Of a stretch of DNA of 64,000 nucleotides, positions 8,396 to 24,645 are shown in pieces. This stretch comes from Candidatus Rokuibacteriota bacterium (GTDB lineage Bacteria > Methylomirabilota > Methylomirabilia > Rokubacteriales > CSP1-6). Below the pieces are notes generated by a model. The model was given only the letters and a program-made list of their open reading frames with translations, did no database searches and was not told the DNA's origin. The DNA is taken from contig QHSI01000015.1 of NCBI GenBank assembly GCA_003221515.1, positions 1 to 64,000 on the forward strand, given 5' to 3'. The position numbers were made by a program, and so were the translations under genes. The first letter of the stretch is position 1. Each line of letters starts with the position of its first letter.

Positions 8396-8396
8396 C

Positions 8397-9197: not shown

Positions 9198-9201
9198 GCG
9201 C

Positions 9202-9954: not shown

Positions 9955-11408
9955 TCGCCAGGCCCCTCGCCGTCGTCGCGGCCGTCGCGCTCGCGCTGGG
10001 CGCCGCGCCGTCGCGCGCCGCCGCGCAGGCGGGCGACGCCACCGCCGGCAAGGCGGTCTACGAGCGACGGTGCGCAGGCTGCCACGGCGAGAAGGGGGAC
10101 GGCAAGGGCCCGGCCGCCGACCTGCTCGTCCCGAAGCCCCGCGACTTCACGATGGGCCTCTACAAGATCCGCACCACCGCCAACAAGGTGCCGACCGACC
10201 AGGATCTCTTCCGCATCATCACGGACGGGATGCCCGGGACCTCGATGCCGGCGTGGGCGGTGCTCACCGAGCGCGAGCGCTGGAACGTGCTCGCGTACAT
10301 CAAGACCTTCGCGGGCGAGAAGCTCAAAGAGGCGCCCAAGAAGGTCGAGCTACCGAAAGACGTCCCGTCGTCCGAGGCGTCGATCAAGCGCGGCAAGGAG
10401 ATGTTCGAGGCGATCGAGTGTCACAAGTGCCACGGCACCGACGGACGCGGCGACGGACCCTCCCGCGCCGAGCTCAAGGACGAGTGGGGGAACCCGATCG
10501 CGCCGGCGAACCTCACCAAGCGGTGGACCTTCCGCGGCGGCGCGAGCCGGACCGAGGTCGCCACGCGCCTGGCCAACGGCGTGCTCGGCACGCCGATGCC
10601 CGCCTTCCTCGACAGCGTCGAGAAGCCCGAGGACATCTGGCACCTGACGAACTTCATCCAGTCGCTCGGGCCCGACTCGCCCCACTACGCGACGCTCGTC
10701 ACCGTCACCGCGGTGACCGGCGCGATCCCGGACGATCCGAACGCGGAGTTCTGGAAGAAGCTCACGCCCAACAACATTCCGCTGATGGGGCAGGTGATCG
10801 TCGACCCGCGGAACTTCAACCCGGCGATCGACCTCGTGGCGGTGCGCGCCGCCTATAACGACCAGGCGATCGTCTTCCACCTGACGTGGGACGATCCGAC
10901 GCAGTCGGCCGACGAGCCGGCCAAGAAGCTCTTCGCCGACGCGATCGCGCTCCAGTTCCCGCCGCAGATCACCGCGGGACCGGAGCGCCCGTACTTCCTG
11001 ATGGGCGACGGCTCCGACGCCGTCTACCTGCTGCGCTGGGAGAACGGCAAGGGCGTGAGCGAGGCGAGCGCGAACGGCCCGGGCAAGATCGCGGCGATCG
11101 CCGGCGGCGAAGCGCGCGGCAACGCGGTGTTCACCAACGGCCAGTACCGGCTCGTGATCACGCGCCCGCTCGTATCGAAGGACGCGACGCGCCCGACGTT
11201 CACGCCCGCGGTGTTCGTGCCCGTCGCGTTCCAGGCGTGGGACGGCGGCGCGGGGGAGACCGGGACCAGGATGTCCGTGACCTCGTGGTACTATCTGCGG
11301 CTGGAGGAGCCGCAGTCGAACCGCCGTTTCGTCATTCCTCCCGTCGTGGCAATCCTCACGCTGGCGGCGATGCTGGTCGTGGTGCGAATTGCGAAGGGGC
11401 GGGCATAA
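9951..11408 (+). CDS. diheme cytochrome c fused to an ethylbenzene-dehydrogenase-type heme-binding domain
   Basis: The 485-residue product begins with a signal peptide (about 1-27). It has two c-heme sites, Cys41-x2-Cys44-His45 and Cys157-x2-Cys160-His161. A domain at about 265-455 resembles the b-heme-binding gamma subunit of DMSO-reductase-family enzymes (EB_dh type), and a single membrane helix closes the protein. The TTG at 9951 overlaps the previous stop and follows a GAGGGG box. EB_dh domains usually accompany molybdenum enzymes, but no molybdopterin oxidoreductase is present here. That makes a role as a b/c-heme wire to the bd-like oxidase plausible. Confidence 0.85.
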   Translation: MIARPLAVVAAVALALGAAPSRAAAQAGDATAGKAVYERRCAGCHGEKGDGKGPAADLLVPKPRDFTMGLYKIRTTANKVPTDQDLFRIITDGMPGTSMPAWAVLTERERWNVLAYIKTFAGEKLKEAPKKVELPKDVPSSEASIKRGKEMFEAIECHKCHGTDGRGDGPSRAELKDEWGNPIAPANLTKRWTFRGGASRTEVATRLANGVLGTPMPAFLDSVEKPEDIWHLTNFIQSLGPDSPHYATLVTVTAVTGAIPDDPNAEFWKKLTPNNIPLMGQVIVDPRNFNPAIDLVAVRAAYNDQAIVFHLTWDDPTQSADEPAKKLFADAIALQFPPQITAGPERPYFLMGDGSDAVYLLRWENGKGVSEASANGPGKIAAIAGGEARGNAVFTNGQYRLVITRPLVSKDATRPTFTPAVFVPVAFQAWDGGAGETGTRMSVTSWYYLRLEEPQSNRRFVIPPVVAILTLAAMLVVVRIAKGRA

Positions 11409-11433
11409 TCTTGAACTCAGAAGGAGCGGGACA

Positions 11434-12132
11434 ATGCGCAGGGCATTGACAGCAGTCGTGGCGGTCGCGCTCGTGGCCGGCGTCGTTTTCGTCGCCCACC
11501 GACCGGATCAGGCCGGAGCGCAAGGCGGTGGGACGATCGAAGCGGCGGTGACGTTCGCCGGCGCGCCGGTCATCGAGAAGCTCAAGGTGAACAAGGACAC
11601 CGAAAAGTGCGGAACCGAGACGGCGATCGAGAAGGTCGTCGTCGGCCCCAACAAGGGGCTCGCCTACGCCGTGGTCTCCGTCGCCGGCGCCAAGGGCGCA
11701 GCGACCGCGAAGAAGGCGACGATCGACCAGCACGGCTGCAAGTTCGTGCCGCACGTCCAGGCGATGACGCCGGGCGAGGTCGAGATCAAGAACTCCGACG
11801 ACATCCTGCACAACATCCACACCTACTCGACCGCCAACGCCTCCATCAACAAGGCGCAGCCGAAGTTCAAGAAGGTGATGACCGAGAAGTTCGAGAAGCC
11901 CGAGATCATCAAGGTCACCTGTGACGTCCACAGCTGGATGCTCGGGTGGGTCGCCGTCATGCCCCATCCGTTCTTCGGCGTGACCGACGCCAACGGCGCG
12001 ACCAGGATCGAGAACGTGCCGCCCGGCAAGTACAGCGTCGAGGTGTGGCACGAGACGCTCGGCAAGCAGACGAAGGAGGTCGAGGTCAAGGCCGGGCAGA
12101 CCGCGAAGGTCGCCATCGAGATGAAGAAGTAG
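11434..12132 (+). CDS. exported cupredoxin with C-terminal carboxypeptidase-regulatory-like fold
   Basis: A 232-residue secreted protein: signal segment 1-30, then a plastocyanin/azurin-like domain with a type 1 copper set His126 (ILHNIH), Cys163, His166 and Met169 (CDVHSWM). A beta-sandwich extension follows from about 180. The ATG at 11434 has AAGGAG at 11421-11426; an upstream ATG in frame at 11389 falls inside the previous gene and is not supported. It sits between the bd-like module and coxB and is a candidate soluble electron carrier. A paralogue lies at 19011-19757. Confidence 0.87.
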   Translation: MRRALTAVVAVALVAGVVFVAHRPDQAGAQGGGTIEAAVTFAGAPVIEKLKVNKDTEKCGTETAIEKVVVGPNKGLAYAVVSVAGAKGAATAKKATIDQHGCKFVPHVQAMTPGEVEIKNSDDILHNIHTYSTANASINKAQPKFKKVMTEKFEKPEIIKVTCDVHSWMLGWVAVMPHPFFGVTDANGATRIENVPPGKYSVEVWHETLGKQTKEVEVKAGQTAKVAIEMKK

Positions 12133-12153
12133 AGCCAGGAGGATCGACCGCGC

Positions 12154-12915
12154 ATGCTTGACTGGTGGCTACCAGAGAACGTTTCGACCTACGGCCAGGA
12201 AATCGACTGGCTCTTCCACCTCATCTATTACATCACCGGCGTGACGTTCATCCTGGTCTTCGCCACGATGCTGGCGTTCATCGTGATGTACCGGGACCGT
12301 CCGGGCCGGAAGGCGCGCTACACCCACGGCAACACCACGCTGGAGATCGTCTGGACGGTGGTGCCGGCGCTGATTCTCGTGATCCTGACGCTGCTGAGCG
12401 TCCCGGCGTGGTCGAAGATCAAGATGACCATGCCGGAGACGGACTTCATCGTGCAAGTGACCGCGAAGCAGTTCAACTGGCAAATCACCTATCCCGGCCC
12501 CGACGGGAAGTTCGGCACCGCCGACGACAAGACGCTCCTCGACGAGATGCACGTGCCGGTCAACAAGATCGTCCGGGTCCACCTGAAATCGCAGGACGTC
12601 ATCCATAGCTTCTTCGTCCCGCAGTTCCGGATGAAGCAGGACGCCGTACCGGGCCGCGAGATCAAGCAGTGGTTCGAGGCGACCAAGCCCGGCAAGTACG
12701 AGCTGCCGTGCGCCGAGCTGTGCGGGTTCGGCCACTCCGGCATGCGCGGGTGGATCTACGTCCACACCGCCGACGAATACGCGAAGTGGGCGGCCCAGAA
12801 CCTGACCGCGGAGGCCGCCCCGACGACCGAGGCCAAACCCGACGACAAGGCCGACGCGAAGAAGGAAGCGCCGGGCAAGGCCGAGCCCAAGAAAGAGGGG
12901 AAAGCCAAGAAATGA
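12154..12915 (+). CDS. coxB: cytochrome c oxidase subunit II
   Basis: CoxB carries the binuclear CuA centre that accepts electrons from cytochrome c. It has two membrane helices (about 18-45 and 65-85) and a periplasmic cupredoxin domain with the complete CuA ligand set His151, Cys186, Glu188, Cys190, His194 and Met197. There is no fused cytochrome c domain, so the oxidase is aa3- rather than caa3-type. The C-terminal 45 residues are Lys/Glu/Ala-rich low complexity. A GGAGG lies 12 bases before the ATG. The stop overlaps coxA (ATGA). Confidence 0.97.
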   Translation: MLDWWLPENVSTYGQEIDWLFHLIYYITGVTFILVFATMLAFIVMYRDRPGRKARYTHGNTTLEIVWTVVPALILVILTLLSVPAWSKIKMTMPETDFIVQVTAKQFNWQITYPGPDGKFGTADDKTLLDEMHVPVNKIVRVHLKSQDVIHSFFVPQFRMKQDAVPGREIKQWFEATKPGKYELPCAELCGFGHSGMRGWIYVHTADEYAKWAAQNLTAEAAPTTEAKPDDKADAKKEAPGKAEPKKEGKAKK

Positions 12916-14663
12916 GCGCCCATAGCGCGACCGCTCACGCGCACGTCGACCACGCCCGCCACGAGCTCGGCTTCGTGCGGACGTACATCTTCTCGACGGA
13001 CCACAAGATGATCGCCCGCCAGTTCCTGTTCCTGGGCCTGTTCATGATGATCATCGGCGGCCTGCTCGCGCTGATCGTCCGCTGGCAGCTGGCCTGGCCG
13101 GAGACGGCGGTGCCCGGTCTCGGTGGCATCCTCAAGGAGACCGGCGGCATCCTGGAGCCCAGCACCTACAACATGGCGTTCACCATGCACGCCACGATCA
13201 TGATCTTCTTCGTGATCATGCCGATCCTGGCCGGCGCCTTCGGGAACTTCTGCATTCCGCTGATGATCGGCGCGCGCGACATGGCGTTCCCGTTCCTCAA
13301 CATGCTGTCGTTCTGGGTGACCGGCAGCGCCGGCATCATCATGCTCTCCGGCTTCTTCGTGGAGGGCGGGCACGCCGCGGCCGGCTGGACCTCCTACGCG
13401 CCGCTCTCGGCGGTCGCGTCGTACACCGGCGTGAACTGGGGCCAGAACATCTGGTGCATCAGCCTGTTCATCATGGGTGTCGGTTCCATGATGGGCTCGA
13501 TCAACTACATCACGACGATCATCAACATGCGGGCGCCGGGGATGAAGCTGTTCCGCATGCCGCTGGTGGTCTGGTCGCTGTTCATCACCGCGATCCTGCT
13601 TCTGCTGGCCCTGCCGGTGCTGACCTCGGGCGTGGCCATGCTACTGTTCGACCGCACGCTCGGCACCAACTGGTTCAAGCCGGCTGGCGGCGGCGAGCCG
13701 CTGCTGTGGCAGCACCTCTTCTGGTACTTCGGCCACCCGGAGGTCTACATCCTGATCCTGCCGGCGATGGGCATCGCGTCGGAGATCCTGCCGGTCTTCT
13801 GCCGCAAGCCGATCTTCGGGTACCACGCGATGGCCTTCTCGATGATCGGCATCGCGTTCCTGTCCTGGATCGTCTACGGCCACCACATGTTCGTCAGCGG
13901 TATGAGCCCGGCGCTTGGGATGGCCTTCACGGTCACCACGATGATCATCGCGGTGCCGTCGGCCATCAAGACCTTCAACTGGCTCGGGACGATGTGGGGC
14001 GCGCGTATGCAGTTCACGGTCCCGATGCTGAACGCGCTGGCCTTCGTCTCGATGTTCGTCATCGGCGGGCTTTCGGGCATCTTCATGGCCTCGACGCCGG
14101 TCGACATCTACATTCAGGACACGTACTTCATCGTGGCGCACATCCACTACGTGGTCTTCGGCGGCTCGATCTTCGGCGCGTTCGCCGCGATCTACTACTG
14201 GTTCCCGAAGATGTTCGGCCGGATGACCAATCCCTTCCTCGGCCACCTGCACTTCTGGGGCACGTTCGTCTTCTTCAACCTGACCTTCTTCCCGATGCAC
14301 ATCATCGGCGTCGGCGGCCAGATGCGCCGGATCTACAACCCGACGCAGTACGAGTTCCTCGTGCACCAGCAGGGCTGGAACGTGTTCATCACGTACAGCG
14401 CGCTCCTCCTCGGCGTCTCCCAGATCCCGTTCGTCATCAACTTCTTCTGGTCGCTCTTCGCCGGGAAGCCGGCTCCGCTGAACCCGTGGAACGCCAACAC
14501 CCTCGAGTGGACGGCGCCGTCGCCGCCGCCGCACTTGAACTGGGGCCCGACGCTGCCGACGGTGTACCGCGGACCCTACGAGTACAGCTCGCCGGAGTCC
14601 AAGGAAGACTTCCTCCCGCAGAACGTGCCGCCAGTGGGCGCCGCGGGAGCGCGGCGGCACTGA
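12912..14663 (+). CDS. coxA: cytochrome c oxidase subunit I
   Basis: The catalytic heme-copper subunit (583 residues, about 12 helices) reduces oxygen at a heme a3-CuB site and pumps protons. The low-spin heme ligand pair is His93 with His412. His275 and Tyr279 (GHPEVY) form the cross-linked CuB/Tyr site, His324-His325 (YGHHMF) complete CuB, and His410 binds heme a3. The Tyr in helix VI marks an A-type oxidase. The ATG at 12912 overlaps the coxB stop; the longer in-frame reading upstream is out of register with coxB and is rejected. Confidence 0.98.
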   Translation: MSAHSATAHAHVDHARHELGFVRTYIFSTDHKMIARQFLFLGLFMMIIGGLLALIVRWQLAWPETAVPGLGGILKETGGILEPSTYNMAFTMHATIMIFFVIMPILAGAFGNFCIPLMIGARDMAFPFLNMLSFWVTGSAGIIMLSGFFVEGGHAAAGWTSYAPLSAVASYTGVNWGQNIWCISLFIMGVGSMMGSINYITTIINMRAPGMKLFRMPLVVWSLFITAILLLLALPVLTSGVAMLLFDRTLGTNWFKPAGGGEPLLWQHLFWYFGHPEVYILILPAMGIASEILPVFCRKPIFGYHAMAFSMIGIAFLSWIVYGHHMFVSGMSPALGMAFTVTTMIIAVPSAIKTFNWLGTMWGARMQFTVPMLNALAFVSMFVIGGLSGIFMASTPVDIYIQDTYFIVAHIHYVVFGGSIFGAFAAIYYWFPKMFGRMTNPFLGHLHFWGTFVFFNLTFFPMHIIGVGGQMRRIYNPTQYEFLVHQQGWNVFITYSALLLGVSQIPFVINFFWSLFAGKPAPLNPWNANTLEWTAPSPPPHLNWGPTLPTVYRGPYEYSSPESKEDFLPQNVPPVGAAGARRH

Positions 14664-14680
14664 TCGGGGTGGAGAGCGCG

Positions 14681-15694
14681 GTGGCGCATCGCCTCGCCCT
14701 CGCGACGCTGGCCGCGACGTGCGTGCTCATCCTGTTCGGGGGGCTGGTCACGAACACCGGCGCCGCGCTCGCGGTGCCGGACTGGCCGAGCACGTTCGGC
14801 CACAACATGTTCCTGTTCCCCTGGTCGGGGATGGTGGGCGGGATCTTCTACGAGCACAGCCACCGCCTGATCGGTGCCCTCGTCGGGGTGCTGACGCTCG
14901 GCCTGGCGGCGGCCCTCTGGCCGCTGGGCGGTCGGCTCCGCCGCCTCGGCCTCCTGGCCGTGACCGTCGTGCTCGCCCAGGGGCTGCTGGGCGGGCTCCG
15001 GGTGGTGCTCCTGCACGACACGCTCGCGATTTTCCACGGCAGCCTGGCGCAAGCGTTCTTCGCGCTGCTGGCGGCGATCGCGTGGCTGACGGCTCCGCGC
15101 GGAGCGGTGGCCGGGCCTCCGATCGCGCGCGAGGTCCAGGGGCTCGCGCTGCTGGCGGCCGGGCTCGTGTACGCGCAGATCGTGTTCGGCGCGCTCCTCA
15201 CGCACGCTGGGCGCGTCGACCTGCACCTGGCCGGCGCCGTCGCGGTGTTCGTCGTCCTGCCGATCGTCACCGCGCGGCTGCGGAGAACGGGCGATGTGGT
15301 CGCCGTCCGCGTCTCGCGCCTGCTCCTCGGCCTGCTCGGGATCCAGCTCCTGCTCGGCATCGGCAGCTTTCTCGCGCGTTTCTCGTCGCTGTGGATTCCC
15401 GGTGAACAGCTCACGATGCTGATCCTCCCGGTGGCTCATCGCCTCCTCGGCAGCCTCCTCCTGGCCGCGACGGTCGTCCTCGCCGTGCGGGCCTTGACTC
15501 TGGCCAAGAAAGAGGCCGAGCAAGAGAAGGGAAGCCGCCGAGCGACCGATCGGGCGCTGACGATCCACGACGCGGTAGATCGGGCGCCGCGGAGCCACGC
15601 CGTGTCTACCGGTGATCGGGCGCCGCGGAGCCGCGCCGCATCTTTCTCAGGCCACCCTCGATGCGAGCCGGCCTCGAGGCGCTCGCTCCAATGA
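14681..15694 (+). CDS. ctaA: heme A synthase (CtaA/COX15 family)
   Basis: CtaA oxidises the C8 methyl of heme O to make heme A for the adjacent oxidase. It has about eight helices and paired His sites in EHSHRLIG, LHDTLAIFHG, LHLAGAV and VAHRLLG, as in the family. The GTG at 14681 is preceded by GGAGAG (14671-14676); another GTG at 14669 is possible. The last 60 residues are a charged Arg/Ser/Ala tail with no family counterpart, encoded by a short tandem repeat. The stop overlaps ctaB (ATGA), so the tail is probably translated. Confidence 0.93.
   Translation: MAHRLALATLAATCVLILFGGLVTNTGAALAVPDWPSTFGHNMFLFPWSGMVGGIFYEHSHRLIGALVGVLTLGLAAALWPLGGRLRRLGLLAVTVVLAQGLLGGLRVVLLHDTLAIFHGSLAQAFFALLAAIAWLTAPRGAVAGPPIAREVQGLALLAAGLVYAQIVFGALLTHAGRVDLHLAGAVAVFVVLPIVTARLRRTGDVVAVRVSRLLLGLLGIQLLLGIGSFLARFSSLWIPGEQLTMLILPVAHRLLGSLLLAATVVLAVRALTLAKKEAEQEKGSRRATDRALTIHDAVDRAPRSHAVSTGDRAPRSRAASFSGHPRCEPASRRSLQ
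15578..15643 (+). repeat. 36-bp-period tandem repeat in the ctaA tail
   Basis: The 19-mer GATCGGGCGCCGCGGAGCC occurs at 15578-15596 and again at 15614-15632. The match extends to about 30 bases with three differences. A degenerate third copy begins near 15548. It looks like an expanded intergenic repeat that has become part of the ctaA reading frame. Confidence 0.75.
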
Positions 15695-16617
15695 CTCCGC
15701 CGGCCCTCGACACGGCCCGCGTCTCGACCGAAGTGGTCGTCGGCGCGCTCGCGCGCGATCGCCGGCGTGTCGTCGCCGACCTCGTCGCGCTGGCCAAGCC
15801 CCGCGTCGTCCTGATGGTCATGGTGACGACGGCCGTCGGATACTACGTCGGGTTGACCGGCGCGCCGGACTACGCCCGGCTCGTCCACTTGCTGATCGGC
15901 ACGCTCCTGGCCGCTGGCGGCACGCTCGCGCTGAACCAGTACTGGGAGCGCGACGTCGACGCGCGCATGGAGCGCACGCGCGCGCGGCCGCTGCCCGACG
16001 GACGGCTGGCGCCGCTCGAGGCGCTCCTCTTCGGCGGCGCCGTCACGCTGGTCGGGCTCGCGTACCTGGGCGCACTCGTGAGCACGCTCTCGCTCGTGGT
16101 GACCGCGCTGACGACGGCGCTCTACCTGTTCGCCTACACGCCCCTGAAGCTGCGGACGCCCCTTTGCACGATCGTCGGCGCGGTGCCCGGCGCGCTGCCG
16201 CCGGTGACGGGTTGGGTGGCGTCGCGCGACGATCTCGGCGTCGGCGCCTGGGTGCTCTTCGGGATCATGTTCCTCTGGCAGCTGCCCCACACGCTCGCGA
16301 TCGCGCGCCTCTACCGTGACGACTACGCGCGCGCCGGCGTGCGCCTGCTGCCGGTCGTCGACGCCGAGGGCACCAGCACCGAGCGCCAGATCGTCACCGG
16401 CTGTCTGGCCCTGCTCGCGGTGAGCCTGCTGCCCACGCTGATCGGGCTGGCCGGGCCGATCTACTTCGTCGGCGCGTTCCTCCTGGGCGCGGCCTTCGTC
16501 GTGCTCGGCGCGCGTCAGGCGCTGGCGCCGTCGGCCGGCTCCGCGCGGCGGGTGCTGCTCGCCTCGCTCCTCTATCTCCCGGTGCTTCTCGCCTTGCTGG
16601 CGTTCGACAAGGTATGA
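15691..16617 (+). CDS. ctaB: protoheme IX farnesyltransferase (heme O synthase)
   Basis: This UbiA-type prenyltransferase adds farnesyl to heme B, the step before CtaA. It has about nine helices and the first Asp-rich motif in NQYWERDVDARMERT. The second loop contains YTPLKLRTPLCTIVGA. The ATG at 15691 overlaps the ctaA stop and gives 308 residues; ATG 15661 would add ten residues inside ctaA. It overlaps a tiny downstream gene (ATGA), continuing the coupled operon. Confidence 0.95.
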   Translation: MTPPALDTARVSTEVVVGALARDRRRVVADLVALAKPRVVLMVMVTTAVGYYVGLTGAPDYARLVHLLIGTLLAAGGTLALNQYWERDVDARMERTRARPLPDGRLAPLEALLFGGAVTLVGLAYLGALVSTLSLVVTALTTALYLFAYTPLKLRTPLCTIVGAVPGALPPVTGWVASRDDLGVGAWVLFGIMFLWQLPHTLAIARLYRDDYARAGVRLLPVVDAEGTSTERQIVTGCLALLAVSLLPTLIGLAGPIYFVGAFLLGAAFVVLGARQALAPSAGSARRVLLASLLYLPVLLALLAFDKV

Positions 16618-16712
16618 CGACCGACACCCGCAACCGACAGACCGTTCGCGTGCTCCTCACGATCGTGGCGGTGCTCATGGTGGCGGCGTTCCTCGTCGGG
16701 ATCCGCTGGTGA
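16614..16712 (+). CDS. 32-residue single-pass membrane protein of the oxidase operon
   Basis: A very short open frame starts with an ATG overlapping the ctaB stop and ends overlapping the GTG of the next subunit III gene. The product has a polar N terminus (MTTDTRNRQ) and one hydrophobic helix of about 20 residues ending GIRW. The tight overlaps on both sides make it a believable gene. Small helices of this size serve as accessory subunits or assembly factors in some terminal oxidases. No specific family is recognised. Confidence 0.65.
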   Translation: MTTDTRNRQTVRVLLTIVAVLMVAAFLVGIRW

Positions 16713-17380
16713 CGACGCTCACCGTCGAGCACCCGACCGACCCGCGCCGGACCAACGGGAGCCTCCCGCCGGTGCCGCCCGAAGGGGGCGGCGGCGACGG
16801 ACCCGATCGTGATCCGGCGCCGCGCCGCCCGCCGCTCGACAACGTGCGGCTGGCGATGCTGTTCCTCATCTGCGCCGAGGTCATGTTCTTCGGCGGTCTC
16901 GTTTCCGCGTTCCTCGTGCTGCGCGTCACCGCCGCCGTCTGGCCGCCACCGCTCCAGCCGCGGCTGCCCGTCGGCGTGACCGCCGTGAACACGCTCGTGC
17001 TGTTCGCGTCCAGCGTGGCGATGGCGGCGGCGCGCCAGGCGCTCCGTCGCGACGACGCGCGCGCGCTCGTCCGACGGCTCGGGCTGGCCGCCGGGCTCGG
17101 CGGCGCGTTCTTGCTGGTGCAGGGCTACGAGTGGGTCCGTCTCGTCTCGTTCGGCCTCACGCTCTCGTCGGACGCGTACGGGACCACCTTCTACTCGCTC
17201 ATCGGCGCGCACGCCGCGCACGTCCTCGGCGCGCTCGTCTGGGTGGCGGTGGTGGCGCTGCTCGCCGCTCGCGGCCGGTTCACCGATGGGCGCACCGGCC
17301 CGTTGCGGGCGTGCGCGATCTACTGGCACTTCGTGGTCGCGCTGTGGCCGATCCTGTTCGTGGCGGTGTACCTGATATGA
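16709..17380 (+). CDS. cytochrome c oxidase subunit III (first copy)
   Basis: This 223-residue integral membrane protein belongs to the CoxC family, which binds beside subunit I and supports proton uptake. After a soluble Pro/Gly/Asp-rich N terminus of about 45 residues come five hydrophobic segments. Subunit III-type features are the helix with CAEVMFFGG, QGYEWVRL, and the terminal AIYWHFVVALWPILF. The GTG at 16709 overlaps the preceding small gene. It is more divergent than the copy at 17640. Confidence 0.9.
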   Translation: MTTLTVEHPTDPRRTNGSLPPVPPEGGGGDGPDRDPAPRRPPLDNVRLAMLFLICAEVMFFGGLVSAFLVLRVTAAVWPPPLQPRLPVGVTAVNTLVLFASSVAMAAARQALRRDDARALVRRLGLAAGLGGAFLLVQGYEWVRLVSFGLTLSSDAYGTTFYSLIGAHAAHVLGALVWVAVVALLAARGRFTDGRTGPLRACAIYWHFVVALWPILFVAVYLI

Positions 17381-17643
17381 GAGCGGGAGTCCTCGTCGCG
17401 CTCCTGCTCATGCTGGCGCCGCGGTCGGCCCAGGCGTGCGCGACGTGCATCGCGTCGCCGTTCGGGGACCAGACCTACACGTGGCCGTACCTCGGATTGA
17501 TCTTGCTCCCCTTCGTGCTGCTCTCGGCCGTGCTCGGCATCTTCGCCCACTCCGCCGGCTATCGCCCGCACGTCCTGGCGCGTCGGCTGGCAGCTCGCGT
17601 CTCGGCCAAAGACGACTCTCAGATCATCAAGGAGACGACATGA
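17377..17643 (+). CDS. small exported/membrane protein with a CATC motif
   Basis: An 88-residue protein with a signal peptide (about 1-20) ending just before CATCIAS, then a hydrophobic helix (about 37-56) and a basic tail. Two Cys spaced CxxC directly after the signal cleavage site could bind metal or take part in thiol chemistry on the outer face. It lies between the two subunit III genes with ATGA overlaps at both ends. The family is not recognised; copper delivery or assembly is only a guess from context. Confidence 0.7.
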   Translation: MRAGVLVALLLMLAPRSAQACATCIASPFGDQTYTWPYLGLILLPFVLLSAVLGIFAHSAGYRPHVLARRLAARVSAKDDSQIIKETT

Positions 17644-18257
17644 GTCACGTAGCCTCGGCGCATGGGGCGGTGGAGCCCGCCGAGTCGCCCCTCACGCCCG
17701 AAAGCTGGGGAAAGCTCGGAATGTGGATCTTCCTCGCCGGCGACGCGGTCGGCTTCGGCACGCTCCTGGCCGGTTACGGCGCGATGCGGGCCACCAGCGC
17801 CGACTGGCCTTCGCCGTTCGCGGTTCTCGGGATCAACCTGACGGCCGCCATGACCTTCCTGCTGATCTGCTCGAGCGTGACGATGGTGAAGGCGCTCGAG
17901 TGGCTGGGCAAGGGGGACAAGGAGCGCGCGAAGGCGTTTCTCTTCTTCACCGCGCTCGGCGGCGCGATCTTCGTCAGCCTGCAGGCGTACGAGTGGTCGC
18001 ATCTGATCCACCGCGGCCTGCTCATCAGCGGCAACCCGTGGGGCGCCGCCCTCTTCGGCGCGTCCTTCTTCATCGTGACCGGCTTCCATGGCCTGCACGT
18101 CACCGGCGGCGTCATCTATCTGCTGGCGATATTGCGGGCCGTCGCGAACCGTCCCGAGCCGGCGGCCAGCTACAACGCGGTCGAGATCGCCGGGCTCTAC
18201 TGGCACTTCGTCGACCTCGTCTGGATCATGGTGTTCACCTTCATGTACCTCCTGTAA
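17640..18257 (+). CDS. coxC: cytochrome c oxidase subunit III (second copy)
   Basis: A 205-residue CoxC with five predicted helices. Diagnostic stretches are WGKLGMWIFLAGDAVGFG, QAYEWSHLIHRG, GFHGLHVTGG and the C-terminal GLYWHFVDLVWIMVFTF, which match subunit III closely. The ATG at 17640 follows AAGGAG and overlaps the preceding stop. The longer frame upstream is a shadow of the preceding gene. Confidence 0.95.
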   Translation: MSHVASAHGAVEPAESPLTPESWGKLGMWIFLAGDAVGFGTLLAGYGAMRATSADWPSPFAVLGINLTAAMTFLLICSSVTMVKALEWLGKGDKERAKAFLFFTALGGAIFVSLQAYEWSHLIHRGLLISGNPWGAALFGASFFIVTGFHGLHVTGGVIYLLAILRAVANRPEPAASYNAVEIAGLYWHFVDLVWIMVFTFMYLL

Positions 18258-18269
18258 GAGGACGAGGCC

Positions 18270-18599
18270 ATGGCGACGGCAGAGCACAAGCATCCGAACT
18301 ACATGGCGATCTTCTGGTTCCTCGCGATCCTCACCGTGGTCGAGATCGCGGTGATCTACATGCCGCTGGCGAAGTTCACGATCGGCGTGCTGCTGTGCGC
18401 GCTGGCGCTCGGCAAGGCGACGATGGTCGCGATGTATTTCATGCACCTCCGCTTCGAGGCTCGCACCCTCGGCATGATCGCGGTCGTGCCGTTGCTGATC
18501 GCGACGCTCCTGATCTTCGTCCTGCTGCCCGACGGCTTCGCGGTCATGAAGCGGACGGTCGGCGTCAAGCCGGCCGCGACCGAGCCCGCCAAGCACTGA
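18270..18599 (+). CDS. coxD: cytochrome c oxidase subunit IV (prokaryotic type)
   Basis: A 109-residue protein with three membrane helices (about 11-28, 36-57, 68-88). It contains the pattern LGKATMVAMYFMHLRFE between helices 2 and 3, typical of the bacterial subunit IV family (COX4_pro). It stabilises the subunit I/III interface. It lies 12 bases after coxC and closes the structural genes of the oxidase. Confidence 0.93.
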   Translation: MATAEHKHPNYMAIFWFLAILTVVEIAVIYMPLAKFTIGVLLCALALGKATMVAMYFMHLRFEARTLGMIAVVPLLIATLLIFVLLPDGFAVMKRTVGVKPAATEPAKH

Positions 18600-18630
18600 G
18601 TGGGCCGCTCTGGGGCCGGCGGGGGCAGCG

Positions 18631-18999
18631 GTGGACTCCGGGCGTTTGGTCGACCGGCTCGTCCCGGCCCTGCGACGGGCAGCGCGTCTGCGCTGTCCCC
18701 GCTGCGCGGGCGCGCCGCTCTTCCGTACCTGGACTTCGATGGCCGACGCGTGCGCCCTGTGCGGGCTCCGCTTCGAGCGGGCCCAGGGCTACTTCGTCGG
18801 GGCGATCTACATCAACTACGCGGTGACGGTGCTCGTCGCGATCGTCGGTTTCCTCCTCTTGTGGGGCATCGCGGGCTTCTCGACACGAGGGCAGCTTGCG
18901 GTGCTGGTGCCGCTGGTCGCCATCTTTCCATTGTGGTTCTTCCGTTACAGCCGGAGCTTCTGGCTCGCCGTCGAGTGGTCGATCAACCCCGAGTCCTGA
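18631..18999 (+). CDS. DUF983 family membrane protein
   Basis: A 122-residue protein starting with a zinc-ribbon-like part, CPRC (about residues 23-26) and CALC (about 41-44). Two hydrophobic helices and a C-terminal RYSRSFWLAVEW follow. This is the DUF983 layout, often found beside oxidase or heme genes; its role is unknown. The GTG at 18631 is chosen because it keeps the first Cys pair and follows a G-rich stretch. The frame is distinct from the longer overlapping frame that belongs to the next gene. Confidence 0.85.
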   Translation: MDSGRLVDRLVPALRRAARLRCPRCAGAPLFRTWTSMADACALCGLRFERAQGYFVGAIYINYAVTVLVAIVGFLLLWGIAGFSTRGQLAVLVPLVAIFPLWFFRYSRSFWLAVEWSINPES

Positions 19000-19010
19000 G
19001 GCCGGCCGGC

Positions 19011-19757
19011 GTGGGCGCGATCGTCGCGTTCCTCGGGCTGCTGCTCACCGCCGGCCCGCTCGGCGCCTACGAGGCGGTCACGGTCAAGGACGGCGGCACG
19101 ATTGCGGGCGTCGTTCGCTTCGCCGGCGCGCCGCCCAAGCTCGGCGCGATCCCGGTCAACAAGAACCGCGACGTCTGCGGCGACGAGAAGCCGTCGGAGG
19201 CGCTGGTGGTCGGGGCCGACCGCGGCGTGCGGGACGGCGTGGTGCTGATCGAGGGCGTGGCCCGCGGCAAGAAAGGCGCTGGCGACGTCATCCTCGACAA
19301 CCGGAAGTGCCTGTTCGTGAGCCACGTGACCGTGGTGGCGCCCGGCGATCGCGCGCGCGTGCGCAACTCGGATCCGATCCTCCACAACACGCACGGATTC
19401 CTGGGCCAGCCCACCGTCTTCAACCTGGCGCTGCCGAACAAGGACCAGATGATCGACATCACGAAGCGGCTGCAGAAGCCGGGGGTGGTCCGCGTGGTGT
19501 GCGACGCGCACCCGCACATGTTCGCGTGGATGATCGTGCACGACAGCCCGTACGTGGCGGTGACCGACGACAGGGGCGCGTTCCGCATCGGCGACGTCCC
19601 GCCCGGGACGTACAAGGTCACCATGTGGCACGCCGGATACCGGCCCAAGGGATCGGACAAGGACGGCCGGCCCGTCTACGACGAGCCGAAGACGCTGACG
19701 AAGGAGCTGACGATCGCGCCGAAAGCGACGGTGACGGTCGAGTTCGAACTGAAATAG
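19011..19757 (+). CDS. second exported cupredoxin-like protein
   Basis: A 248-residue homologue of the 11434 protein with the same plan: signal peptide (about 1-19), copper-type domain and a carboxypeptidase-regulatory-like end (IGDVPPGTYKVTMWH). Likely copper ligands are the His in ILHNTHG and the Cys, His and Met in CDAHPHMFAWM. The first GTG in frame after the DUF983 stop is at 19011; longer upstream readings overlap DUF983 out of frame. Having one copy on each side of the oxidase operon suggests exchangeable electron carriers or copper handling. Confidence 0.85.
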   Translation: MGAIVAFLGLLLTAGPLGAYEAVTVKDGGTIAGVVRFAGAPPKLGAIPVNKNRDVCGDEKPSEALVVGADRGVRDGVVLIEGVARGKKGAGDVILDNRKCLFVSHVTVVAPGDRARVRNSDPILHNTHGFLGQPTVFNLALPNKDQMIDITKRLQKPGVVRVVCDAHPHMFAWMIVHDSPYVAVTDDRGAFRIGDVPPGTYKVTMWHAGYRPKGSDKDGRPVYDEPKTLTKELTIAPKATVTVEFELK

Positions 19758-19768
19758 AGGGGGACGTC

Positions 19769-21679
19769 ATGTTCAAGCACATCTGCGTGCCGGTGGACAA
19801 CTCGGAGTATTCGAACCGGGCGATCGACCTGGCGGTCGAGCTGGGTCGGCCGGGCGGGGCGAAGCTGACCGGCGTCCACGTGTACGCCGCGCGGCTGCAC
19901 GATTACCGGTTCAAGCAGATGGAGTACACGCTGCCCGAGGAATACAAGGACGAGAACGAGCTCGAGCGCCAGCGGAAGATCCACGACTCGCTGATCGCCA
20001 TGGGGCTCCAGCTCATCTCCGAGTCGTACCTGGACGTGATGGCGCGCAAGGCCGGCGCGGCCGGGCTCGCCTTCGAGTCCAAGATGATCGACGGCAAGCA
20101 CTACAAGGTGCTCATCGACGACTGCCTCGCCGCCGACTACGACCTGGTGGTCATGGGCGCCCTGGGGATGGGCGCGGTCAAGGACAGCCAGCTCGGCTCG
20201 GTCACCGAGCGGTTCGTCCGCCGCGTGTCGCGCGACACGCTCATCGTCCGCAACACCGACGCGTTGAAGGACCAGCAGGGGCCGATCGTCGTGTGCCTCG
20301 ACGGCTCGCCGCAGTCCTTCAACGGCCTCCAGCTCGGCGTCGGAATGGCGAAGGCGCTCGGCCGGCCGCTGCAGGCGGTGGCGGTCTACGACCCGTACCT
20401 CCACTACGCGATGTTCAACGGCATCGTCGGCGTGCTGAGCGAGAAGGCATCGAAGATCTTCCGCTTCAAGGAGCAGGAGCAGCTGCACGAGGAGATCATC
20501 GACACCGGATTGGCCAAGATCTACCAGTCGCACCTGGAGATCGGCCGCAAGCTCGCCGCCGACTCCGGCGTCGAGCTGGCCATCACGCTCCTCGACGGCA
20601 AGTGCTTCGAGAAGATCCTGACGTTCGTGCGCAAGGAGCATCCCTGGCTCCTCATCCTGGGGCGGGTGGGCGTGCACTCGGACGAGAACGAAGTCGATCT
20701 CGGCTCCAACACCGAGAACCTCCTGCGGCTGGCCCCGTGCAACGTGCTGCTGACCGGCGGCAAGTTCTATCCGCCGCTCGACGTGAAGGCCGAGGAGATC
20801 ATCTCCTGGACCGAAGAGGCCGAGGCCCGGATGGAGCGGGTGCCGCTGCAGGTGAAGGGCGTGGCGCGCACGGCGCTGCTGCGGTACGCGATCGAGCAGG
20901 GGCACACCGTCATCACCAACAAGGTCATCGACGAGGCGATGGCGATCTTCATGCCGACCCGCCTGGCCGAGCGCATGCAGATCCTCGCCGAGGACGTCGC
21001 GGTCGCGAAGCTGCGGGCCGAGTCCCAGCCGGCGACGGCCATCTGCTCCATCTGCGGCTACACGGTCAAAGGCCCGAACCCGGTCGTCACGTGCCCGGTC
21101 TGTCGCGCCGGCGCCGACAAGTTCCAGGTCATCTCGAAGGAGACGGTCGAGGCGATCGCCGCTCAGGAAGGCGGGATCGAGGAAGAAGAGTCGATGCCCG
21201 GTGTCCAGGTGAAATGGTCGGCCGACGCGCGCGACGCCCTGCGCGAGGTGACCGACGCGTACCTTCGCCGGCGGGCCAAGGCCCGGATCGAGAAGTACGC
21301 GCGTTCGCGCCGGATCCCGGTCATCACCTGCCAGCTGGCGCTGCCGATGATCGAAGAGACCGTCGGGCGCGACAAGCTCGGCGCGGGCTGGGATACACTC
21401 CTGGCCAAGACCAAGTTCGAGCCCGCCGAGATGCCGAGCGCCCCCGCGCCGGCCGGCGGCGGCCCGGGCTTCGGCTGGACGGACGAGGCCACGGCGCGCC
21501 TGAACCGCGTGCCCGCTGGGTTCATGCGCGATATGACGCGCGAGGAAGTCGAGCGGGTGGCGGGCGCTAAAGGTGTCACGACCATCGACCTGGCGGTTTG
21601 CGAAGAAGGCATCGGGCATGCCCGCGAGACGATGAACGAGGTCATCGCGGGGTACGTGTCGAACAAAAAACCGCGATAG
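19769..21679 (+). CDS. fusion: two universal-stress domains, PCP_red, rubredoxin-like zinc ribbon, two more PCP_red
   Basis: A 636-residue protein. Residues 1-165 and about 170-330 are two Usp domains; the first keeps the opening FKHICVPVDNSEYS and a glycine-rich nucleotide loop, GALGMGAVKDSQLGS. Residues about 345-392 form a small helical domain like the C terminus of protochlorophyllide reductase subunit B (PCP_red). Next is a CxxC-x12-CxxC ribbon (Cys426, 429, 442, 445), then two further PCP_red-like units (about 482-535 and 568-620). The ATG at 19769 has a purine-rich GAGGGGGA before it. Function is unknown; a nucleotide-sensing scaffold for a redox or tetrapyrrole process is an inference. 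Confidence 0.88.
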   Translation: MFKHICVPVDNSEYSNRAIDLAVELGRPGGAKLTGVHVYAARLHDYRFKQMEYTLPEEYKDENELERQRKIHDSLIAMGLQLISESYLDVMARKAGAAGLAFESKMIDGKHYKVLIDDCLAADYDLVVMGALGMGAVKDSQLGSVTERFVRRVSRDTLIVRNTDALKDQQGPIVVCLDGSPQSFNGLQLGVGMAKALGRPLQAVAVYDPYLHYAMFNGIVGVLSEKASKIFRFKEQEQLHEEIIDTGLAKIYQSHLEIGRKLAADSGVELAITLLDGKCFEKILTFVRKEHPWLLILGRVGVHSDENEVDLGSNTENLLRLAPCNVLLTGGKFYPPLDVKAEEIISWTEEAEARMERVPLQVKGVARTALLRYAIEQGHTVITNKVIDEAMAIFMPTRLAERMQILAEDVAVAKLRAESQPATAICSICGYTVKGPNPVVTCPVCRAGADKFQVISKETVEAIAAQEGGIEEEESMPGVQVKWSADARDALREVTDAYLRRRAKARIEKYARSRRIPVITCQLALPMIEETVGRDKLGAGWDTLLAKTKFEPAEMPSAPAPAGGGPGFGWTDEATARLNRVPAGFMRDMTREEVERVAGAKGVTTIDLAVCEEGIGHARETMNEVIAGYVSNKKPR

Positions 21680-21812
21680 GCGCGGGAGAGGGGGCGGGGG
21701 GCCTCCCGGAATCCGACTGCCGCTCCGCGCAGCGGGCCAATTTACATGCGCTTGATCAGGACGACGCTGACTACACGGATTCCGGGAGGCCCCGCGCCCC
21801 CTCTCCCGCGCC
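21679..21812 (+). repeat. large inverted repeat between the Usp fusion and the radical SAM gene
   Basis: The left arm 21679-21715 and right arm 21776-21812 are 37 bases each and complementary at 36 positions. The 60-base loop (21716-21775) contains its own small hairpin CCGCT/AGCGG. The arms begin at the last base of the preceding stop codon. It could act as a bidirectional terminator or processing site, or be a MITE-like insertion. No target duplication is obvious. Confidence 0.9.
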
Positions 21813-21863
21813 TCCATGGATCCCGACGACTGAGCCCCGCGTGCCTTCACCCACGTCTTACAC

Positions 21864-23366
21864 GTGACTGATCCAGCGTCCGATCACATCGCTGCTCGCA
21901 CCGGCGTCCCGACTTCGGCGGCTGCCGCGCCGCCTTCAGCGTCGGCGAGCGCGCAATCGTCGGCGTCGCCCGGCGCGCAATCATCGGCCGCGCCGGCGGG
22001 CGCCGTGAATCCGTATACGGCGTATAGCGTGTCGTGGAATTTGACTCAGCGCTGCAATCTCGAGTGCGCGCACTGCTACATGTCGGCGTTTGCTGGGGCC
22101 GATACGCGGGGGGAGCTCGGGACCGACGAGTGCCGGCGGGTGATGGACGAGATTGCGCGGGTCAATCCGCACGTGTTCTTGATCCTGACGGGCGGCGAGC
22201 CACTGTTGCGGAAGGACATTTGGGACGTGGCGGCGTACGCTGCCGAGAAGCGGTTCACGACCGTGTTCGGAACGAACGGCCTCCTGCTGCGTGAGAAGGA
22301 AGCCGCCTGTATGCGCGAGCACGGTGTGCTCGGCGCTTCGATCAGTCTGGATTCGACCGACCGTGTGAAGCACGACGCGTTCCGCCATCTGGCCGGCGCC
22401 TGGGACGGAGCGGTGCGGGCGACCCGCGTGCTGACCGACGCCGGCCTCGATTTCTCCCTGCACATGTCGGTGACCGACTGGAACGTCGCCGAGGTCCCCG
22501 CGATGATCGACCTCGCGAAGGAGCTCGGCGCCAAGGTGCTGAACTTCTTCTTCCTGGTGCGGACCGGTCGCGGTCGAGACCTCACCGACATCGACGCCGC
22601 CGCGTACGAACGCATCCTGACGTACCTGGCGCGCACGCAGGGTGTCGGCACGGAACCGCCGTCGTTCGTGAAGCGGATGCTCGGGATGGGCGGCGGCGCG
22701 TCGGAGAAATTCGAGGACCCGTGGTCGCTGCCGGTCGGGCGCGCCGACGGGCTGCTGATCCGCGCCAAGTGCGCGCCGCACTTCCGGCGCGTCCTCTACC
22801 AGATGAACCCGTCCTCTCCGCTCCTCATGAACTACGCCCACGGCTCGTGTCCGGCCGGGAAGTACTATTGTCGAATCACGCCCGAGGGCGACGTCACGCC
22901 GTGCCCGTATATGCCGGTGTCGGCGGGGAACCTGCGCGAACGGTCCTTCGACGATCTGTGGCGCGGCGCGCCGGTGTTCGACGACCTGCGCGACCCCAAG
23001 CTCGGTGGACGCTGCGGCGCCTGCGAGTTCTCGAAGCTCTGCGGCGGCTGCCGCTGCCGCGCCTACGCGACCCACGGCGACTACCTGGCGGAGGATCCCG
23101 CGTGCGGCTATCAGCCGGGCGCGCACGGCGGCCGGCTGATCGACGTGCCGGCGTCGCTCACGTTCGGGCTGCCGCCCGACTATCAGTTGGAGTGGGCCGA
23201 GGACGCGCGCGAGCGGCTGCACGCGATTCCCTCGTTCGCGCGCGGGATGGTGGTGAAGGCCGTCGAGGTGTACGCGCGTGGCCGCGGCGAGACCGTCATC
23301 ACGAAGGAGCTCCTCGCCGACGTCCGCTCCAAGTGGGGCGGCCGCTTCCGGCCGTCGTCGCCATGA
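21864..23366 (+). CDS. radical SAM/SPASM protein with C-terminal PCP_red domain
   Basis: A 500-residue enzyme. The first 48 residues are Ala/Ser/Pro low complexity. The radical SAM cluster site is Cys64-x3-Cys68-x2-Cys71 (CNLECAHCY), with a GGEP-type SAM loop following (TGGEPLL). A SPASM-type Cys-rich region (CPAG, CRITPEGDVTPCPY, CGACEF, CGGCRC) binds extra Fe-S clusters. Residues about 432-485 form a PCP_red unit like those in the preceding gene. It resembles the NirJ/AhbC/AhbD branch of tetrapyrrole-modifying enzymes, but the substrate is unknown. The GTG start at 21864 is uncertain. Confidence 0.88.
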   Translation: MTDPASDHIAARTGVPTSAAAAPPSASASAQSSASPGAQSSAAPAGAVNPYTAYSVSWNLTQRCNLECAHCYMSAFAGADTRGELGTDECRRVMDEIARVNPHVFLILTGGEPLLRKDIWDVAAYAAEKRFTTVFGTNGLLLREKEAACMREHGVLGASISLDSTDRVKHDAFRHLAGAWDGAVRATRVLTDAGLDFSLHMSVTDWNVAEVPAMIDLAKELGAKVLNFFFLVRTGRGRDLTDIDAAAYERILTYLARTQGVGTEPPSFVKRMLGMGGGASEKFEDPWSLPVGRADGLLIRAKCAPHFRRVLYQMNPSSPLLMNYAHGSCPAGKYYCRITPEGDVTPCPYMPVSAGNLRERSFDDLWRGAPVFDDLRDPKLGGRCGACEFSKLCGGCRCRAYATHGDYLAEDPACGYQPGAHGGRLIDVPASLTFGLPPDYQLEWAEDARERLHAIPSFARGMVVKAVEVYARGRGETVITKELLADVRSKWGGRFRPSSP

Positions 23367-23791
23367 TGGACAGATTTCGGCTCGCCGCCCACGCGTACCG
23401 GACCTACGGCGTGATCTACTGGATCGGCGGCTTCTATCTCATCTGGCACGGAGTCGGGGTCCGAGGCGGTCGCACCGCGGACTCGGGCGTCGTCTGGATC
23501 GTGCTGGGGCTCGTCTTCATCGTGGTCATCCCGTATCTCCTCGCCCAGCGCCGCGCGTGGTTCGAGCGCTGGATCGTTTCGCGCCGCGATTTCGCCCGCA
23601 TCCTCGTCGCGTTCATGGCCTGGCGAGCCTGGCATGTCCTGAAGGTCGTGATTCGCCCGGAGACCGCGCGCGTGTCCGCGCCCTGGGGGGGTGAGATCAC
23701 CTTCCGCGTCGGCGCCTGTGTGTTCCTGATCGTGACCGTGGCCGCGTTGCTGGTGATCGCTCGGGCGGCCTGGGCGACGGAAGCCGCATGA
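23363..23791 (+). CDS. small polytopic membrane protein
   Basis: A 142-residue protein with hydrophobic segments at about 15-32, 42-60, 78-95 and 115-137 and basic residues between them. The ATG at 23363 overlaps the radical SAM stop, and the gene's stop overlaps the Mrp-like gene. It is therefore an integral member of the Usp/PCP_red-radical SAM-Mrp unit. I do not recognise the family. Conserved-looking Trp/Arg patches (WRAWHVLKV) could mark an interaction surface. Confidence 0.8.
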   Translation: MMDRFRLAAHAYRTYGVIYWIGGFYLIWHGVGVRGGRTADSGVVWIVLGLVFIVVIPYLLAQRRAWFERWIVSRRDFARILVAFMAWRAWHVLKVVIRPETARVSAPWGGEITFRVGACVFLIVTVAALLVIARAAWATEAA

Positions 23792-24645
23792 AGCGATACC
23801 GGGACATCGCCGGTGACGGTGGCTCCAACATCGTGGGCCAGGTCGAGGCCCAGCTCGGCAAGCTCCGGCAGCGCCTCGCCTCCGTCGGCGCGGTCGTCGC
23901 CGTGGTCTCCGGCAAGGGCGGCGTGGGCAAGTCGACGCTCGCCGCGAACCTCGCCTGCTGCCTGGCGCTCGACGGCTCCCGCGTGGGCGTCCTCGACGCG
24001 GATCTCAACGGCCCGACGCAGGCCAAGGTGCTGGGGGTCCGCGGCCGGCGGCTGGTCGTGACCGACGAGGGCGTCGAGCCGCCGCGCGGCGCGCTCGGAG
24101 TCAAGGTCATGTCGATGGACCTGCTGCTGGCCGCGGACGCCACGCCCCTCACGTGGGACGCGCCCGTCCAGGACGAGGCCCACACCTGGCGCGGGACCGT
24201 CGAAGCGAACGCGATCCGTGAGTTCCTGGCCGACACGAACTGGGGCACGCTGGACGCGCTCGTCCTCGACCTGCCGCCGGGCACCGACCGGCTTCTGACG
24301 ATCGCCTCGCTGGTGCCGACGCTCGGTATCGTCATCGTGACGATCCCGTCCGACGTGTCCCACCTGGTCGTGCGGAAGTCGATCACGGTGGCCGCGCAGA
24401 CGAAGTCCCCGGTTCTCGGACTCGTCGAGAACATGGCCGGACTCTTCCCGGGCCCCGACGCGGCGAAGCTCGCCGCGGACGGCGGGATCCCGTACCTCGG
24501 GAGCGTGCCGTTCGATCGCGAGCTCGCCGTCTCCGCCGATCGGGGAGAGCCGCTGGTCGCCACGGCGCCGGAGCGTGAGTCGGCGCGCGCGCTGCAGCTC
24601 ATCGCGCGCGCGATTCGCGCCGCGCTGGCGCCGCGCGCGGTGTGA
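23788..24645 (+). CDS. Mrp/NBP35-like P-loop ATPase lacking the CxxC cluster motif
   Basis: A 285-residue ATPase of the ParA/MinD superfamily. The deviant Walker A SGKGGVGKST lies at 41-50; VLDADLNGP and LPPGTDRLLTIA complete the Mrp-type nucleotide site. Mrp proteins carry or deliver Fe-S clusters, normally through a C-terminal CPxC. Here the corresponding loop reads ENMAGLFPGPDAAKL with no Cys. It may be a non-cluster-carrying paralogue dedicated to its operon partners. The ATG at 23788 overlaps the previous stop. Confidence 0.9.
   Translation: MKRYRDIAGDGGSNIVGQVEAQLGKLRQRLASVGAVVAVVSGKGGVGKSTLAANLACCLALDGSRVGVLDADLNGPTQAKVLGVRGRRLVVTDEGVEPPRGALGVKVMSMDLLLAADATPLTWDAPVQDEAHTWRGTVEANAIREFLADTNWGTLDALVLDLPPGTDRLLTIASLVPTLGIVIVTIPSDVSHLVVRKSITVAAQTKSPVLGLVENMAGLFPGPDAAKLAADGGIPYLGSVPFDRELAVSADRGEPLVATAPERESARALQLIARAIRAALAPRAV

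Follow-up and report, generated by a model that had tools for sequence, protein, structure and literature searches.

Genes with PCP_red domains accompany a divergent cytochrome bd-like oxidase subunit across bacterial phyla and may form its maturation module

Gene content of the locus

The window analysed here is a stretch of 64,000 nucleotides from a Candidatus Rokuibacteriota bacterium (contig QHSI01000015.1). A sequence-only reading had placed four genes at positions 19769-24645, and all four were confirmed there. These genes, their domains and the oxidase genes upstream are as follows.

6557-8395, forward strand: divergent, OR-N-like CydA subunit of a cytochrome bd-like oxidase; co-occurrence marks it as the module's partner (PF01654, 50 bits)
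8397-9197, forward strand: c-type cytochrome adjoining CydA (from sequence; the homologue L101:6850-7335 is a Cytochrom_C protein)
9294-11408, forward strand: multi-c-heme/EB_dh-type protein or proteins adjoining CydA, exact starts uncertain (from sequence; the homologue matches Cytochrom_C and EB_dh)
12154-18599, forward strand: caa3-type oxidase genes between CydA and the module (CoxB, CoxA, CtaA/B, CoxC-like, CoxD-like; families by recognition from sequence)
19769-21679, forward strand: USP-USP-PCP_red-rubredoxin-PCP_red-PCP_red fusion protein, 636 aa (Pfam, motif and Cys conservation)
20807-20938, forward strand: PCP_red copy 1 of the fusion (44.9 bits)
21044-21127, forward strand: rubredoxin-like zinc/iron knuckle of the fusion (C426, C429, C442, C445; RUBY_RBDX, 35.3 bits)
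21215-21334, forward strand: PCP_red copy 2 of the fusion, weak (30.6 bits)
21476-21607, forward strand: PCP_red copy 3 of the fusion (45.8 bits)
21864-23366, forward strand: radical SAM/SPASM enzyme with C-terminal PCP_red, closest to NirJ2/AhbD (Pfam/NCBIfam profiles, conserved Cys, tree)
23193-23324, forward strand: PCP_red of the radical SAM enzyme (50 bits)
23363-23791, forward strand: four-helix membrane protein (AF2 model, pLDDT 86.6)
23788-24645, forward strand: Mrp/NUBPL-type P-loop ATPase that has lost its CxxC (PF10609, 216.5 bits)

The fusion protein matched Usp in two stretches (126.8 bits) and PCP_red (PF08369) in three (93.7 bits in total), together with the rubredoxin-like knuckle, whose four cysteines were invariant in 80/80 family members. 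The first USP domain carried the ATP-binding motif G-2x-G-9x-G(S/T) in 83 of 84 family members and the second a relaxed form of it in all 84, the spacer in the window's second domain being longer by one residue. Usp fold and ATP-binding motif, which together mark an ATP-binding type universal stress protein, are both present in the fusion.

Four PCP_red copies had been proposed for the fusion and the neighbouring radical SAM gene. Three of them scored above the Pfam cut-off of 32.5 bits, but the middle copy of the fusion fell below it (E 2.2e-6 in a whole-genome search). The description of the two genes as a PCP_red pair holds in that both carry the domain, but the set is larger. A Zn-ribbon-PCP_red gene lies elsewhere in the same genome (G000:C19:18418; PCP_red 63.6 bits) and adjoins other module genes in relatives; it belongs to the module as a fifth gene. 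A Cys-Pro-Phe (CPF) motif was found in 20/21 Zn-ribbon-PCP_red proteins. A further weak PCP_red match (24 bits) was seen at G000:C66, at a site with no clear gene call.

The overlap ascribed to the genes applies to the last three, those for the radical SAM enzyme, membrane protein and Mrp-type ATPase, which share 4 bases at each junction (23363 and 23788). Homologues of the four-helix membrane protein occurred only in Rokubacteria/NC10-type loci; Pfam and NCBIfam searches gave no match to it and the PDB no fold match with E < 1. The Mrp-type ATPase retains its P-loop and, as the sequence-only reading had stated, is devoid of the C-terminal cluster-binding CxxC, which places it outside the Mrp/ApbC Fe-S carriers. 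The missing CxxC is a late loss within the Rokubacteria clade. Because the motif is retained in NC10, Acidobacteriota and other deeper lineages, we rejected the Cys-less ATPase as a key feature of the module.

The radical SAM enzyme

The start of the radical SAM gene is uncertain, with GTG codons at 21864 and 22005; homology makes the latter the likely true start. The protein matched Radical_SAM (71.5 bits), SPASM (42.6 bits) and PCP_red (45.9-50 bits), and carries both the CX3CX2C motif and the SPASM cysteines, the cluster cysteines being conserved. Among NCBIfam profiles, it scored 302.8 bits with NirJ2 (TIGR04055), 297.2 bits with AhbD (TIGR04545) and 112 bits with PqqE, remaining under the 500-bit equivalog cut-offs of both NirJ2 and AhbD. 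In the tree, the radical SAM-PCP_red proteins formed one clade (support 99/97) separate from the AhbD rows, and this clade lies near the heme-modifying NirJ/AhbD enzymes. Their cysteines occupy the same positions as in AhbD proteins, and an AhbD-like enzyme of Nitrospirota (488 bits) likewise has a PCP_red domain (39.7 bits).

Co-occurrence of the module with a bd-like CydA

The upstream CydA (6557-8395) is not a canonical cytochrome bd subunit: canonical CydA proteins reach 313-506 bits with PF01654, and in the alignment the GRQPW segment (with the Glu ligand) and the quinol-binding loop were absent. The CydA profile found mostly four to five CydA-like genes per Nitrospira-type genome, as described for OR-N oxidases, a comparison made with the published description. 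The OR-N family was reportedly given its name by Murali in 2021.

In Acidobacteriota, the USP-PCP_red fusion and bd-like CydA were found in the identical 18 of 198 genomes (Fisher p 6e-26). Nitrospirota gave 67 genomes with both genes, 2 with the fusion only, 4 with CydA only and 85 with neither (p 6e-37), and three of the four CydA-only genomes have radical SAM-PCP_red beside a tandem USP without PCP_red. In the window's own class, both were present in 27 genomes, CydA alone in none, the module alone in 1 and neither in 10. CydA was matched in all of 27 module genomes drawn from many phyla, two Chloroflexi being the only ones with a weak match. Radical SAM-PCP_red gave a strong match in 24 of 28 genomes.

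The module is conserved across bacterial phyla. Neither outcome that the sequence-only reading had named as refuting it came about: three of the four PCP_red copies pass the profile threshold, and the genes co-occur strongly. Its view that they are a single unit with a link to the oxidase operon upstream is strongly supported, but the partner is the divergent CydA rather than the immediately adjoining caa3 oxidase, since the 18 Acidobacteriota genomes with the module are exactly those with bd-like CydA. A COX1 control rejected the neighbouring caa3 oxidase as partner: heme-copper oxidase, present in 162/198 Acidobacteriota, has no co-occurrence link with the module. By itself, the co-occurrence fits maturation as well as co-regulation.

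A proposed role in oxidase maturation

On balance, we favour the reading that the PCP_red genes serve the OR-N-type, cytochrome c-linked bd-like oxidase that lies upstream in the same block of genes: they would be an accessory set devoted to its maturation and would probably act on a tetrapyrrole. The domain make-up, the conserved linkage and the near-perfect co-occurrence, even where the genes are unlinked, are observed. We infer that the substrate is a tetrapyrrole, and we infer the reaction and the hand-over as follows. The radical SAM-PCP_red enzyme would most likely alter a tetrapyrrole, which its C-terminal PCP_red may hold, as is thought for protochlorophyllide reductase. The product could be held, sensed or passed on to the apo-oxidase by two proteins, the one with the Zn ribbon and PCP_red and the ATP-binding USP-PCP_red fusion, and the Mrp-type ATPase may serve in Fe-S cluster supply or ATP-driven release. 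A tetrapyrrole role had been suggested before and is plausible given the likeness to NirJ2/AhbD and the PCP_red of an AhbD-like enzyme elsewhere; the accompanying suggestion of Fe-S modification found no support of its own except the Mrp-type ATPase. Among the observations that count against maturation, radical SAM-PCP_red was not found in two Chloroflexi and one Nitrospiria genome, and four genomes (G312, G326, G335, G345) have a USP without PCP_red.

Alternatively, the radical SAM/SPASM enzyme may cross-link or otherwise modify an oxidase subunit or a small peptide, with PCP_red as a protein-binding domain joining the module proteins. Peptides are the substrates of most SPASM enzymes with solved structures, and the best PDB fold matches of the AF2 model were the peptide modifiers PqqE, SkfB and SuiB, with no AhbD or NirJ structure among the matches. 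This model, built from 8 sequences, is moderate (pLDDT 71.9, pTM 0.68) and too weak to place the packing of PCP_red. The several PCP_red copies in partner proteins are also what a protein-interaction module might show. However, the sequence is nearer to NirJ2/AhbD than to PqqE, PCP_red is common to BchB and an AhbD-like enzyme, and no conserved gene for a short peptide turned up in a survey that covered small ORFs unsystematically. We consider peptide modification unlikely.

Nor do we expect a purely regulatory or stress module without any part in biosynthesis, in which USP-PCP_red proteins, as sensors of ATP, redox state or heme, would govern the expression or turnover of the oxidase. ATP-binding motifs are kept in both USP domains, and universal stress proteins as a class, individual proteins not being stated, increase at low O2 in the proteome of Nitrospira marina (PMC8115632). 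Yet a radical SAM enzyme with conserved cluster cysteines and an Mrp-type ATPase point to chemistry, and in Nitrospirota the radical SAM enzyme is more constant than the PCP_red portion of the USP.

It is very improbable that the genes accompany the oxidase only through one laterally moved cluster. Module and oxidase genes do share a cluster in Rokubacteria, NC10 and Acidobacteriota, but such hitch-hiking does not explain the co-occurrence, because the USP fusion and CydA lie at least 200 kb apart in complete single-chromosome Nitrospirota (G062, G342, G372, G376, G378, G380, G410), and several further genomes have the radical SAM gene on a different contig. This reading is largely refuted. 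Finally, we rejected radical SAM-PCP_red as the lineage's heme b synthase (AhbD), despite its AhbD score and matching cysteines, since it falls under the AhbD cut-off and outside the AhbD rows, the window genome and 31 relatives have a ferrochelatase, and AhbD-like proteins (445-467 bits) co-exist with it in G034 and G312.

Returning to maturation, a more specific version is possible, which we put forward tentatively: the module could make and insert a new modified heme, for example of chlorin type or with trimmed side chains, that OR-N bd-like oxidases need. The radical SAM enzymes would then be a new subfamily and the PCP_red domains tetrapyrrole carriers. In nitrite-oxidising Nitrospira, OR-N is thought to be a main terminal oxidase, and it is present in Nitrospinota too. 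The genes that accompany it through the phyla point to the likely assembly factors and provide a handle on the needs of a poorly understood oxidase type. The oxidase may bear a non-standard heme, and expression of the oxidase gene alone might fail. The orphan PCP_red domain, in turn, gains a testable role outside chlorophyll synthesis.

Comparison with known systems

As in the window, the OR-N bd-like oxidase (CydAA') of Nitrospirota and Nitrospinota has a divergent CydA beside c-type cytochromes. In Acidobacteriota, ActA/ActB-like genes lie upstream of bd-like CydA, an arrangement also reported for OR-N5 (PMC12342949). The OR-N family has been called uncharacterised (PMC10839748), and neither of these two comparative papers mentions 'universal stress' or 'radical SAM'. 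Our literature search found no paper that ties bd-like oxidases to PCP_red, USP or radical SAM; PF08369 came up in one unrelated paper, and 'PCP reductase' solely with a different meaning.

The closest families by profile are AhbD, NirJ, NirJ2 and AhbC, which share with radical SAM-PCP_red the cysteines of CX3CX2C, xCAPH, CGxC and CxGCR and the final Cys. Unlike them, the module enzyme scores ~300 bits against 500-bit cut-offs, forms a separate clade with a C-terminal PCP_red, and is tied to an oxidase in the presence of classical ferrochelatase.

PCP_red itself is shared with the C-terminal domain of the dark-operative protochlorophyllide reductase subunit BchB/ChlB (PDB 2kru, 8vqi, 9buo). 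In contrast to BchB/ChlB, the module has no nitrogenase-like core, no BchL/BchN partner was seen, and PCP_red is used one to five times in other proteins. The BchB profile (TIGR01278) matched the best stretch in its last 52 positions only (64.6 bits vs 490), the nitrogenase-like catalytic domain being absent. We know of no experiment demonstrating tetrapyrrole binding by PCP_red outside protochlorophyllide reductase.

Oxidase-assembly genes such as CydDC, CtaA/CtaB and CcoGHIS are each dedicated to one oxidase type, like the module proposed here. We noticed no sequence relation to them; the module differs in having a radical SAM enzyme and PCP_red proteins.

The gene block containing the PCP_red module

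The window is part of contig 26 in a genome of 5.1 Mb, for which the closest named relatives are metagenome-derived genomes of Rokubacteria/Methylomirabilota. Positions 6557-24645 on the + strand read as a single long respiratory gene block.

Genes of the block (window positions)
6557-8395, +, divergent CydA
8397-11408, +, c-type cytochromes and an EB_dh-type heme protein
11389-12132, +, small copper-protein-like gene with a carboxypeptidase-regulatory domain
after the first copper-protein-like gene, +, caa3 oxidase genes with CtaA and CtaB (read from the sequence)
18631-18999, +, DUF983 (Pfam)
19067-19757, +, second small copper-protein-like gene with a carboxypeptidase-regulatory domain
after the second copper-protein-like gene, to the end of the block at 24645, +, four module genes

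The two copper-protein-like genes (11389-12132 and 19067-19757) resemble each other and lie one on either side of the caa3 genes.

Pfam bore out the fusion proposed by the sequence-only reading: the first module gene combines tandem Usp domains, PCP_red and a rubredoxin-like knuckle. All three PCP_red copies claimed for it were located, the middle one at 30.6 bits and thus slightly under the cut-off of 32.5 bits. The second gene, which probably starts at GTG 22005, encodes the expected radical SAM, SPASM and PCP_red domains. Across the family, USP fusions carry one to five PCP_red copies. At one locus (L206:864-1844, genome G414), four PCP_red repeats form one protein, whose neighbours are radical SAM-PCP_red and a five-copy USP. 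At four others (L192, L194, L198 and L205), radical SAM-PCP_red adjoins a tandem USP without PCP_red, an arrangement that may be an earlier or a reduced version of the module; in L192, the tandem USP lies immediately beside CydA.

Conservation of the module

One scan of species genomes yielded at least 539 confirmed relatives of the USP-PCP_red protein, the best 80 of which came from Rokubacteria/NC10, Acidobacteriota, Chloroflexi, Nitrospirota, a Planctomycetota bin and others. The genes had been read as one unit, and a genome-neighbourhood survey agreed, in that they recur together across phyla among these 80 loci. Radical SAM-PCP_red was near USP-PCP_red in ~55, the Mrp-type ATPase in ~40 and a short Zn-ribbon-PCP_red gene in ~18 of the best 80 loci, many of which end at contig ends; the membrane protein gene (~27/80) occurred there only in Rokubacteria/NC10-type loci. 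In Nitrospira (L122:13431-13958), the gene after radical SAM-PCP_red instead encodes a CopD-like membrane protein, a family assignment that rests on a weak Pfam match.

The Zn-ribbon-PCP_red gene lies on a different contig in the window genome (G000:C19:18418), and in other genomes it overlaps or follows the Mrp gene. Four Cys of its product are invariant, and a Cys-Pro-Phe motif occurs in 20 of the 21 sequences. In some regulators, heme is bound through Cys-Pro motifs, which gives a lead for the role of this protein.

Co-occurrence with the bd-like oxidase

Profiles of divergent CydA (A2) and USP-PCP_red (A3) were run on identical genome sets. Each matched 18 of 198 Acidobacteriota, and both sets consisted of the same genomes; the gene order there is multiheme cytochrome c, ActB-like, CydA-like, cytochrome c genes, then the module. 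Among 158 Nitrospirota, USP-PCP_red was found in 69 (in five, G345, G383, G389, G407 and G409, confined to the USP half), CydA in 71 and both in 67. The two USP-only genomes had partial matches. Three of the four CydA-only genomes (G312, G326 and G335) have radical SAM-PCP_red next to tandem USP without PCP_red, which leaves G394. In the window's own class, all PCP_red-negative genomes lacked divergent CydA and all PCP_red-positive genomes had it except G036. Fisher tests gave 6e-26 (Acidobacteriota), 6e-37 (Nitrospirota) and 2e-8 (window's class), values made too small by genome kinship; the co-occurrence was, however, seen again in three separate phyla.

G036 has only canonical CydA. On its contig C163, a protein with three PCP_red domains (L044:8314-9610) has a TIGR04053 radical SAM and an Mrp-like fragment as neighbours but no USP, possibly a second use of PCP_red.

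Linkage does not explain the co-occurrence, because USP and CydA are at least 200 kb apart in single-chromosome Nitrospirota. Nor do heme-copper oxidases explain the module's distribution, since COX1 occurs in 162 of 198 Acidobacteriota, including all 18 module genomes. The proposed link to the upstream oxidase operon thus holds for divergent CydA and not for the heme-copper oxidase. We are highly confident that the module is associated with the bd-like oxidase.

A radical SAM-PCP_red profile matched strongly in 24 of 28 genomes, frequently on a different contig; there was no match in G046, G048 or G052, and the G041 copy was broken by frame shifts.

Radical SAM-PCP_red and its possible substrate

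Against NirJ2 and AhbD, each with a cut-off of 500 bits, the enzyme scored ~300; its scores were 251 against TIGR04053 and 112 against PqqE. Its 24 rows formed one clade (support 99/97) in a tree that also included AhbD, TIGR04053 and NirJ/AhbC-type proteins. Its conserved Cys are those of the AhbD proteins L126 and L127, whereas two of them are replaced by Glu and Ser in TIGR04053 proteins. A near-AhbD radical SAM (488 bits) in a Nitrospirota genome (L196:491-1879, G054:C11) has, independently, a PCP_red at its C-terminus (39.7 bits). Since the window genome encodes ferrochelatase, it can probably make ordinary heme b without radical SAM-PCP_red.

To our knowledge, PCP_red has been studied in one setting only, protochlorophyllide reductase. 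Together with the nearest enzyme families and the CPF motif, this setting makes a tetrapyrrole a somewhat favoured substrate. Our best reading is a maturation module for an OR-N oxidase, the bd-like type of Nitrospirota/Nitrospinota, that would act on a tetrapyrrole; some of its proteins would carry, sense or deliver the product, and assigning these roles is guesswork. As rivals, the module could modify a peptide of the oxidase or act purely in regulation. A literature search, with most subscription journals outside its scope, found no paper that relates bd-like oxidases to genes for PCP_red, USP or radical SAM proteins. The parts come from known families; what appears new is the way they are combined, the subfamily formed by the radical SAM enzyme, and the tie to the OR-N oxidase.

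Relation of divergent CydA to OR-N oxidases

Divergent CydA scored 50 bits to PF01654, versus 313-506 for canonical CydA, and barely matched solved bd oxidases; aligned with canonical CydA, it lacked the GRQPW segment and the quinol loop. In a Nitrospirota genome (G389, L195:3713-19553), an OR-N-like CydA (14437-16182) lies within an apparent nitrous oxide reductase cluster, whose genes we take by recognition to be nos, with radical SAM-PCP_red upstream at 1531-2727; from this context, OR-N-type oxidases may have further roles. OR-N CydAA' has been described, is thought to receive electrons from cytochrome c and is termed uncharacterised (PMC12342949, PMC10839748). Compared by these descriptions, it is like divergent CydA in gene number per Nitrospira-type genome, most of which have four or five divergent CydA-like genes each.
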